Below are positions 34,327 through 36,761 of a stretch of 64,000 bases of DNA, piece by piece. The notes below the pieces were generated by a model that did no database searches, was not told the DNA's origin, and saw only the letters and a program-made list of their open reading frames with translations. Made by a program: the position numbers and the translations under genes. Each line of letters opens with the position of its first letter. Position 1 is the first letter of the stretch. Location: NCBI GenBank assembly GCA_902583265.1, contig CACHVD010000005.1, positions 1 through 64,000 on the forward strand, written 5' to 3'. The DNA is from an uncultured Prochlorococcus sp. Its GTDB lineage: Bacteria > Cyanobacteriota > Cyanobacteriia > PCC-6307 > Cyanobiaceae.

Positions 34327-34356
34327 TAGACATCCAAATCAAAATACGCTTATAAT
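34327..34356 (+). promoter_or_regulatory. Promoter of the riboswitch-DUF4278 unit
   Basis: TAGACA (34327-34332) and a perfect TATAAT (34351-34356) are separated by 18 bp, close to the sigma-70 consensus. Transcription would begin near 34363, giving a leader of about 93 nt before the preferred ATG that contains the whole structured element below. Confidence 0.65.
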
Positions 34357-34381
34357 AATTTGGTAGCAATCGCTACTTTTT

Positions 34382-34437
34382 CGTTCACCCTCATTTGAGG
34401 GCGCAGTTCGAGTCATACCATGGAACGGGGGATGGCC
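34382..34437 (+). promoter_or_regulatory. Glutamine-II-like (downstream-peptide motif) riboswitch
   Basis: This GC-rich leader contrasts with the AT-rich surroundings. The outer helix is CGTTC (34382-34386) with GAACG (34423-34427). Inside lies hairpin CCCTC / GAGGG (34388-34392, 34397-34401, loop ATTT), then CGCAGTT and TACCATGGAACGGGG. This order matches my memory of the downstream-peptide RNA, shown to bind L-glutamine and common upstream of short ORFs in Prochlorococcus and Synechococcus. The GGGG after the outer helix lies where pairing could affect ribosome access. Identification rests on pattern, not a covariance search. Confidence 0.72.
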
Positions 34438-34455
34438 GTGTTGTCACATCGAAAC

Positions 34456-34629
34456 ATGACTACTTTAACTTACAGAGGTAAAAACTACGTTCAAAACAAA
34501 GAAGCTGCTGAAAAGCAACTTGTTGAACTTACCTACAGAAGAAACGTATACACCAATAGAATGGATGACGCTTCTTCAAGTAATGAAAAAGCAGAATTAA
34601 ATTACAGAGGTGTTAATTACACTAAATAA
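34456..34629 (+). CDS. Small DUF4278 protein (three YRG-type repeats)
   Basis: The 57-aa protein starts MTTLTYRGKNYVQ. It contains three related units, LTYRGKNYV, LTYRRNVYT and LNYRGVNYT, the DUF4278 signature. The ORF track begins at 34420, but that ATG lies inside the structured leader and adds non-family residues. The ATG at 34456 gives the family's usual N-terminus, though no clear Shine-Dalgarno precedes it. It is bracketed by its own promoter, leader and terminator. Function is unknown. Control by glutamine would tie it to nitrogen status. Confidence 0.8.
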   Translation: MTTLTYRGKNYVQNKEAAEKQLVELTYRRNVYTNRMDDASSSNEKAELNYRGVNYTK

Positions 34630-34645
34630 TTTAATTAAACAAATT

Positions 34646-34674
34646 AAAAGCCCCTTTTCAGGGGCTTTTTTTTT
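34646..34674 (+). terminator. Intrinsic terminator after the DUF4278 gene
   Basis: AAAAGCCCC / GGGGCTTTT stem with loop TTTTCA followed by a run of nine T. This is the clearest rho-independent terminator in the window, and it closes the riboswitch-controlled unit. Confidence 0.92.
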
Positions 34675-34706: not shown

Positions 34707-35501
34707 ATGTCTGAAAGTTGCTGTAATACAAACACATCGAATAAAGCACCTAATCAATTCGATCATAAAGATGCTATTCAAGAAAGATATGGTTCAGCCG
34801 CACTAGAAAAAGAAAGTTGTCTTTGTACACCAGTTGGGTTTAATCCCGTTTTACTGGAAGCAATTCCTCAAGAGGTTATAGAAAGAGACTATGGATGTGG
34901 GGATCCAACAAAATATGTTCAAAAAAATGATATAGTCTTAGATCTTGGAAGTGGTAGCGGCAAAAATGCTTTTATTTGTGCCCAAATTGTTGGGAAAGAA
35001 GGGAAAGTTATTGGAGTTGATCAGAATCCTGACATGCTTTCTTTATCTAGATCAGCCTCTAAAGAAGTTACAAAAAATATAGGTTTCAACAATACAGAAT
35101 TTCTAGAAGGTTCAATCGAAAAACTTGATGAATTAGATGAAGATTTAAGTCCATTAATCGCAGATAAATCAGTTGATATTATTTTAAGTAATTGCGTTTT
35201 AAACTTGGTAAGTCCAGAATCTAGAAATAACCTTCTAAGAAATATAAAAAGAGTTTTAAACGATAATGGAAGAATTGCAATTAGCGATATTGTCTCTAAC
35301 AAAAAAGTTCCTTTAAGATTGCAAAATGATCATGATCTATGGACAGGATGTATTAGTGGAGCATGGTATGAACCAGACTTTATAAGTGACTTTAAAGAAC
35401 TAGGATTTAAAAATTTAGAATTTGCAGAAAGGAGTGCTGAACCTTGGAAAGTAATTGAGGATATAGAATTTAGAACAGTAACTTTAGTAGGCAATATTTA
35501 A
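34707..35501 (+). CDS. ArsM-like arsenite methyltransferase
   Basis: This 264-aa SAM methyltransferase has motif I VLDLGSGSGKNAFICAQIV near residue 75. Features shared with ArsM are an N-terminal Cys pair (SESCCN), RDYGCGDP near residue 60, LSNCVLNLVSPESRNN near residue 157 and LWTGCISGAWYEPDF near residue 211, whose cysteines correspond to the arsenic-binding residues of the family. It probably methylates As(III), or it may be a close paralogue with another substrate. No ars operon genes are adjacent. Confidence 0.75.
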   Translation: MSESCCNTNTSNKAPNQFDHKDAIQERYGSAALEKESCLCTPVGFNPVLLEAIPQEVIERDYGCGDPTKYVQKNDIVLDLGSGSGKNAFICAQIVGKEGKVIGVDQNPDMLSLSRSASKEVTKNIGFNNTEFLEGSIEKLDELDEDLSPLIADKSVDIILSNCVLNLVSPESRNNLLRNIKRVLNDNGRIAISDIVSNKKVPLRLQNDHDLWTGCISGAWYEPDFISDFKELGFKNLEFAERSAEPWKVIEDIEFRTVTLVGNI

Positions 35502-35537: not shown

Positions 35538-36761
35538 ATGAGAAATAATCTAAGAGATCAAATACCAGCATTAAAAAATAAGTATTATTTCAACTATGGA
35601 GGCCAAGGACCATTACCAAAATCTTCTTTAGAAGCAATAGTTAAAACGTGGGAAATTATCCAAGATTTAGGACCATTTACTAATAATATGTGGCCTTTTA
35701 TTTACAAAGAAATATTGAACACAAAAAGGATCATTTCACAAAAATTAGGTGTAAATTCAAAGAATGTAGCTTTAACCGAGAATATCTCTTCCGGTATGAT
35801 TTTGCCCTTTTGGGGAATAAAAGTAGAAGAGGGAGAAGAGCTGTTAATAAGTGACTGTGAACATCCTGGAGTAGTGGCTGCAAGTCGAGAATTTTGTAGA
35901 AGAAATAAATTAATATTCAAAATTTTGCCGATCCAAAAACTTAAAAATCTAAACGACGAAAATATAATTTTAGAGATTTTGAAAAATCTAAATAGTAAGA
36001 CTAAGATGCTAATTATTTCTCATATCTTATGGAACTTTGGATATAAAATTCCTTTAAAACAAATTTCTATCGAATTAAAAAATAATCGAGCAGATTCTTA
36101 TTTACTTGTTGATGGTGCTCAAACCTTTGGACACATAAACATTGAAAAAGAAGTTTTTTATTCTGATTTATATTCAATAACTTCTCATAAATGGGCATGT
36201 GGACCAGAAGGACTTGGAGCCATTTATGTCTCAGATAGATTTATTCATGAAACAGATCCAACAATAATTGGTTGGAAATCATTAAAAAAAGAACAAGGCA
36301 TTTATGAGCCTTCAGATAATCTTTTTCATGATGATGCAAGGAAGTTTGAAGTAGCTACATCTTGCATTCCTTTACTTGCAGGGCTTCGTAATTCTATAGA
36401 TCTTTTGGATAAAGACTGCCATGAAAAAGAAAAAAGCGAGCATATCAAAAGATTAAGTAAGAAACTTTGGGATGAATTAAATCAATTAAAGGGTGTTGAA
36501 TTAGTTTTAGAAAAAAAGTACCTAAATGGGATAGTTAGTTTTAATATCGAAAATATTGAAGATAAGGATAAATTTGTAAATAAACTTGGAGAAAAGAAAA
36601 TTTGGATTAGAGTTTTAGAAGATCCAAAATGGTTTAGAGCATGTATACATCAAATGACTACAGAAGCTGAGATTAATTTACTTTCTGAAGAAATTAAAAA
36701 TTACCAGGGTATTTCTGAGCTATCCCAAGCAATAAATTTTCCAGTAGATTCTGGGGATTGA
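35538..36761 (+). CDS. Class V PLP-dependent aminotransferase/cysteine desulfurase-like enzyme
   Basis: The 407-aa fold-type I enzyme has the PLP Schiff-base lysine in YSITSHKWACGPEGLGAIYV near residue 222, the cofactor Asp in VDGAQTFGHINIE near residue 195 and an N-terminal YFNYGGQGPLP. It resembles cysteine desulfurases and isopenicillin N epimerase-like proteins of cyanobacteria (COG0520). The SufS-type catalytic Cys loop is not evident, so another C-S lyase or transaminase reaction is possible. Its last 61 bp overlap the convergent SDR gene. Confidence 0.82.
   Translation: MRNNLRDQIPALKNKYYFNYGGQGPLPKSSLEAIVKTWEIIQDLGPFTNNMWPFIYKEILNTKRIISQKLGVNSKNVALTENISSGMILPFWGIKVEEGEELLISDCEHPGVVAASREFCRRNKLIFKILPIQKLKNLNDENIILEILKNLNSKTKMLIISHILWNFGYKIPLKQISIELKNNRADSYLLVDGAQTFGHINIEKEVFYSDLYSITSHKWACGPEGLGAIYVSDRFIHETDPTIIGWKSLKKEQGIYEPSDNLFHDDARKFEVATSCIPLLAGLRNSIDLLDKDCHEKEKSEHIKRLSKKLWDELNQLKGVELVLEKKYLNGIVSFNIENIEDKDKFVNKLGEKKIWIRVLEDPKWFRACIHQMTTEAEINLLSEEIKNYQGISELSQAINFPVDSGD

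Follow-up and report, generated by a model that had tools for sequence, protein, structure and literature searches.

A glutamine-II riboswitch cassette with a putative NtcA box at its transcription start and a DUF4278 mini-protein gene in Prochlorococcus

In a 64,000-nucleotide stretch (the window) of a 64% complete genome of an uncultured Prochlorococcus sp., a compact cassette at positions 34327-34674 comprises, in this order, a promoter, a palindrome, a riboswitch aptamer, a 57-codon open reading frame (ORF), and an intrinsic terminator (Table 1). The cassette has a nifU-like gene on one side and an arsM-like methyltransferase gene on the other, and its location is fixed, since the sequence from ~33.6 to 35.5-35.6 kb matches continuously in all but one of the 60 orthologous loci that were fetched (59 of 60), the remaining locus being truncated by a contig end. 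The near-consensus promoter described in the initial annotation proved to be the best site in the region; its TATAA core and GACA are retained in nearly all orthologues, with divergence in the spacer between them, and the strong terminator described there was likewise recovered. As for the downstream neighbors, the product of 34707-35501 resembles ArsM, with scores below the NCBIfam cut-offs, and 35538-36761 encodes a class-V aminotransferase/cysteine-desulfurase-like protein.

Table 1. Features of the cassette, in window coordinates.
Feature	Position	Strand	Description
Promoter	34327-34356	+	-35 TAGACA 34327-34332; -10 TATAAT 34351-34356; spacer 18; 11/12 consensus
GTAGCAATCGCTAC	34363-34376	+	Putative NtcA-type box GTAN8TAC; also 5'-terminal RNA hairpin, 5 bp, 4-nt loop, +1..+14 (by homology)
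Glutamine-II (downstream-peptide) riboswitch aptamer	34379-34436	+	RF01704, 67.5 bits, gathering 33, E 3.7e-14 (64-kb window)
Pseudoknot PK	CGTTC 34382-34386 with GAACG 34423-34427, plus C34404:G34428	+	Ligand site by homology to crystal structure (PMC6698751)
P1 hairpin CCCTC/GAGGG	34388-34392 with 34397-34401	+	4/5 pairs changed on both sides
P2 helix	GTCAT 34412-34416 with ATGGC 34432-34436	+	Contains non-start ATG 34432
Linker, aptamer to start codon	34437-34455	+	Conserved; without Shine-Dalgarno; 1-2 nt indels in several orthologues
ORF, 57 aa	34456-34629	+	DUF4278 (PF14105), three YRG/YRR repeats, 6.73 kDa, pI 9.35
Intrinsic terminator	34646-34674	+	AAAAGCCCC-TTTT-GGGGCTTTT type stem 34646-34669, 10 bp, then T-run

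The leader had initially been proposed to follow the glutamine-II pattern, and in the covariance searches it scored far above the gathering threshold of RF01704; the model of the Glutamine-I (glnA) riboswitch, RF01739, gave 22.9 bits against a cut-off of 35 and was rejected. To evaluate the structure, an unfitted alignment of 40 distinct orthologous leaders was scored against P1, P2, the pseudoknot, a long-range pair, and the 5' hairpin. Pairing was observed in 98.8% of cells and fell to 35-60% when the partners were slid; double-sided changes were found in 26 cells (4.4 in shuffles), and the covariation score was 0.137, versus 0.079 in the shuffles. All P2 cells are paired, with pair 54:74 changed on both sides in nine sequences. 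The pseudoknot is invariant in all 40 leaders, as expected for a ligand site, and complete in 135 of 135 parsed aptamers. When mapped on the crystal structure (PMC6698751), C1:G40, G2:C39, G18, and C19:G41 correspond to C34382:G34427, G34383:C34426, G34403, and C34404:G34428, such that the ligand-site nucleotides are all present, as well as invariant in the orthologous-leader alignment. A missing covariance-model match combined with missing structural conservation had been named as what would speak against a riboswitch here, and both the match and the conservation were found. The region is thereby confirmed as a genuine Glutamine-II riboswitch aptamer, for which selective glutamine binding and ON control would be expected by analogy to published members of the class (PMC6316151, PMC6698751).

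The palindrome between the promoter and the aptamer, a feature missed in the first reading, conforms to GTAN8TAC, the NtcA consensus (PMC3898017). Across many picocyanobacterial genomes, this box occurs within 40 nt upstream of the aptamer in 131 of 138 unique YRG-type leaders and in none of the 16 leaders of a second class, which precede peptides beginning MNNL/MNEL. The Yfr6 RNA of MED4 was published at complement(627729..627972), with its 5' end at 627972 (PMC1242208). One MED4 match to RF01704 lies inside these coordinates, the palindrome of that copy begins, with its first G, exactly at the mapped 5' end, and the ORF starts at nt 98 by our count (published, 97). The corresponding palindrome of the window would, by homology, form nucleotides +1 to +14 of its transcript. 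The box overlaps the start site, as in an NtcA-repressed promoter, and a putative NtcA box at +1 would suit a repressor, as for gifA and gifB, which are repressed by NtcA (PMC7760959); this likeness concerns regulation, rather than a comparison of box positions.

The initial description of the product as a three-repeat DUF4278 mini-protein was upheld: PF14105 matches with 44.2 bits (cut-off, 25.3) over positions 1-57 of the 57-position profile, with three Y-R-G/R repeats, and the search of relatives recovered the protein at 98-100% identity in named Prochlorococcus records. No match was found for the 57-aa protein in NCBIfam or among PDB sequences, and an AlphaFold model built on a 4-sequence alignment was too weak to interpret (mean pLDDT 66.6, pTM 0.33). 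With the glutamine synthetase (GS) inactivating factor IF17, the protein shares the N-terminal DUF4278 domain (relation from PMC6316151); the rest of the 149-aa IF17 has no counterpart, as the 57 residues lie wholly within DUF4278. According to reviews, this part of IF17 promotes its stability and is dispensable for its function (PMC6316151). Since the protein matches only this dispensable part, GS inhibition is only a candidate role, and it is weakened by the lack of the rest of IF17 and of NCBIfam and PDB matches.

ATG codons at 34420, 34432, and 34456 share one frame and, as had been pointed out, the first two lie within or next to the aptamer, raising the question of which start is used. 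Initiation at ATG 34420 or 34432 would yield a 69- or 65-aa protein, respectively. However, both codons consist of aptamer bases. ATG 34420 adjoins the pseudoknot strand, is replaced by AGG or AAG in many orthologues, and contributes an A that corresponds to A33 of the crystal structure, the partner of G42 in a nearly invariant pair (PMC6698751). ATG 34432, in the P2 strand, is ATA in a divergent group, and in several orthologues the linker indels shift both codons into another reading frame. All 40 distinct leaders retain ATG 34456. Because the upstream ATGs are lost or frame-shifted, ATG 34456 is, by orthologue comparison, the start codon; the longer proteins are refuted for the group by the same comparison and are very improbable here. 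Equally hard to credit is that the YRG ORF serves as a leader peptide or attenuator regulating something downstream, instead of being the riboswitch's own gene. The small size of the ORF, the strong terminator, and the arsM-like gene that follows shortly past its stop codon, from 34707, would fit such an arrangement, but the terminator closes the unit, the product belongs to a conserved protein family with its 57 codons open in all orthologues checked, and sister copies of the cassette precede other small YRG ORFs at unrelated loci.

A less distant alternative, although still an unlikely one, is that the palindrome acts mainly as RNA, i.e., as a stem-loop at the 5' end that shields the mRNA or aids aptamer folding, and not as an NtcA site. 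Four stem pairs of the hairpin are invariant among the 40 leaders, the fifth shows compensatory changes, and in the Yfr6 transcript, as mapped, the hairpin sits right at the 5' end. In seven divergent orthologues, N7 spacing breaks the NtcA consensus while a perfect 5-bp stem is kept, its fifth pair being C-G, U-A, or A-U; in one further leader (L132) the stem is retained with a G-U pair, and in two leaders from other genera (L129 and L133) an unrelated sequence stands in for the palindrome and folds into a 6-bp hairpin at that position. Since some leaders have lost the N8 spacing yet keep the hairpin, the palindrome may not act through NtcA only. Nevertheless, GTA/TAC identity together with N8 spacing, in the large majority of YRG-type leaders, is more than a plain hairpin requires, and within the N8 sites the fifth pair does not covary significantly (80% paired, versus 76% shuffled; p 0.15). 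Moreover, in two viral copies (L267 and L269) the start-site box is joined by a second GTAN8TAC (GTAGTAATCGCTAC) 8 nt before TATAAT, an arrangement that would be expected of a protein site. These patterns favor NtcA as the probable main reader of the palindrome, with the hairpin as a possible second role.

How ligand binding would reach the start codon is less clear from folding. A Shine-Dalgarno sequence is absent from 17 of 17 window-type leaders and present in 32 of 35 Yfr6-type leaders, as well as in 12 of 12 leaders of the L003 type (described below). In a single-sequence fold, the linker can pair with the AUG (CGUGUU/AACAUG); this AUG hairpin is not conserved as pairs. Folding of the window sequence without and with the aptamer gave unpaired values of 0.38 and 0.30 for the start region, and only the MNNL class opens clearly (0.51 to 0.74); hence, comparison of the two folds revealed no clear ON mechanism or expression platform for the window subtype.

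RF01704 was detected in 148 of 151 congeneric genomes and in 116 of 150 genomes of the order. The initial claim of a self-contained unit holds in that the unit is real, but it is not new, and its own incomplete genome contains four RF01704 copies, including this one. The other three copies precede a Yfr6-type 33-aa YRG peptide (L001), another 33-aa YRG peptide, MVNMYFNGK... (L003), and a non-YRG protein, MNELSQIREK... (L004). The L004 leader has no GTAN8TAC box, and its aptamer resembles the crystallized RS01 aptamer. Elsewhere, one genome (G306) has three copies of equal score at C1:994009, 1147127, and 1209516, and the two that were fetched (L209 and L210) hardly differ in leader or protein, which suggests a recent duplication. 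In two other genomes, an aptamer with a GTAN8TAC box precedes a longer non-YRG ORF (MKFSHITIMSNNVSTS...) with a hydrophobic stretch, possibly representing a different target class (L115 in G042; L151 and L152 in G050).

The system to which the cassette belongs is already known, since the class, its DUF4278 link, its ON behavior, and PMM1846 are published. The Glutamine-II/DP class (RF01704, type 2 glutamine riboswitch) is restricted to marine picocyanobacteria, where it occurs in multiple copies (PMC6316151, PMC2864571, PMC6698751). DP aptamers that precede DUF4278 genes, and that glutamine turns ON, are described in PMC6316151, and an ON switch has been published for a Prochlorococcus member. 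The window copy shares with this class P1, P2, the pseudoknot, the ligand-site nucleotides, a small downstream ORF, a marine picocyanobacterial host, and multicopy occurrence; its aptamer does not differ, whereas the Rfam model does not extend to its 5'-terminal palindrome and its subtype lacks a Shine-Dalgarno sequence. The Rfam and Pfam matches and these three publications support the earlier suggestion that the locus is tied to nitrogen status, with a riboswitch governing a DUF4278 peptide.

In MED4, the orthologous position (395.5 kb) holds a protein of 57 aa and 6.7 kDa with the same leader, with only strain-level substitutions. Because none of the other three MED4 copies encodes a YRG protein of this size, it is very probably PMM1846, an assignment made from size and identity rather than by lookup; PMC6316151 describes PMM1846 as a 7-kDa DUF4278 protein with a riboswitch and an NtcA motif. 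It is also most probably PMED4_04601, as the MED4 Yfr6 peptide is 67.7% identical to it over 31 residues and the published identity for PMED4_04601 is 67% (PMC2518516). Yfr6 of MED4 and SS120 has the same layout of hairpin, aptamer, YRG ORF, and terminator, with its 5' end at the palindrome, but differs in its separate locus within the same genome (L001 here), its 33-aa product, its GGAG Shine-Dalgarno sequence, and its normal synonymous divergence (0.254). Yfr6 falls on nitrogen depletion (PMC1242208). In Synechocystis, the DUF4278 protein IF17 (gifB) is likewise controlled by NtcA and by a riboswitch that glutamine turns ON, but the aptamer is of the Glutamine-I (RF01739) class and the protein is longer, with only its N-terminal domain matched here. 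To this body of work, the present analysis adds the start codon, the NtcA box at the transcription start, the freeze at silent sites described below, and the cassettes on viral contigs.

Taken together, the cassette can be regarded with good confidence as a nitrogen-surplus gene unit in which a DUF4278 protein would be NtcA-repressed and glutamine-switched. Transcription would start at the GTAN8TAC palindrome. Under nitrogen shortage, active NtcA would bind the box over the start site and block transcription; with plentiful nitrogen, the mRNA would be made, and glutamine would bind the glutamine-II pseudoknot and free the initiation region, allowing translation from ATG 34456 (an ON switch). 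The product, a small basic YRG protein akin to the N-terminal part of IF17, would most likely bind a partner in nitrogen assimilation. That this logic of NtcA-off in shortage and glutamine-on in surplus operates at the window locus is suggested by the conserved parts and by published relatives. The most likely role of the product would be that of a nitrogen-replete signal protein, possibly restraining GS. As the specific partner, GS itself is the leading candidate, albeit a doubtful one. Picocyanobacteria lack full-length GS inactivating factors, and the restraint of their nitrogen assimilation has been described as unclear (PMC6316151); glutamine-switched YRG proteins are the leading candidates for this function. 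Now that the start codon, the position of the putative NtcA box (+1), and the whole unit are fixed, the question becomes directly testable.

This mRNA poses a second, distinct question, which concerns the silent sites of its ORF, nearly frozen in the main Prochlorococcus group. Among the 48 orthologues of that group, MED4 included, the average four-fold-site difference is 0.031 for the ORF, versus 0.247 for nifU and 0.194 for the methyltransferase gene. Conservation at first and second positions is unremarkable (0.024, versus 0.012 and 0.037, respectively). Across the deepest split of this group, the ORF differs by 0.037 at four-fold sites where the flanks differ by 0.435, an effect whose size is approximate because four-fold codons number only 20 in the ORF and the pairs are not independent. 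Cassette-wide recent transfer was rejected, since the promoter spacer (0.40), P1 loop (0.42), and 3'UTR (0.26) diverge normally across the same split. High-expression codon bias was also rejected: in 15-18 main-group genomes, genes named by eye from their sequences as rplL (0.30), rplJ (0.28), rbcL (0.29), rbcS (0.23), and csoS1 (0.18) diverge at four-fold sites, compared with 0.056-0.069 for the ORF in the same genomes. An overlapping ORF was dismissed, as no other frame is open throughout. The freeze is not seen in the paralogues (L003-type, 0.171; MNNL, 0.428; Yfr6-type, as given above).

One explanation, possible but on balance doubtful, is a dual-function mRNA whose coding region, besides specifying the peptide, would work at the RNA level by base pairing, through its own structure, or by partnering an antisense RNA. 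Restriction of the freeze to the ORF and its independence of expression level are consistent with this, as is the extra stability of the ORF mRNA relative to synonymous randomizations (z -1.6 to -3.4, main group); in addition, levels of the antisense RNA asMED4_04601 go up in the early stage of phage infection (PMC2518516). On the other hand, the divergent group is not frozen (0.43), RNAalifold detected no covarying or conserved structure in the ORF, the four-fold codons are few, and ORF-restricted gene conversion could produce the same pattern. A fuller version, which we consider somewhat less probable still, would make the 57-codon frame itself a functional RNA in the main group, with silent sites selected like coding ones, in a regulatory or antisense-paired glutamine-switched mRNA of which cyanophages carry cassette versions.

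The aptamer motif was also found on seven IMG/VR contigs, mostly before small YRG-like ORFs and in several cases with a GTAN8TAC box. Complete cassettes are present on viral (cyanophage-type) contigs, suggesting that phages may use the host nitrogen switch; hairpin, aptamer, and small YRG ORF occur together in L265, L267, L269, L270, and L271. No relatives of the viral YRG proteins were found in named phage records, where the DNA search matched only a terminator-like stretch. The PHROG families matched by the viral proteins (phrog_5049 and phrog_545) have no assigned function. Cyanophages encode photosystem II D1, and the L269 cassette lies close to psbA on a contig that encodes this protein (phrog_182).
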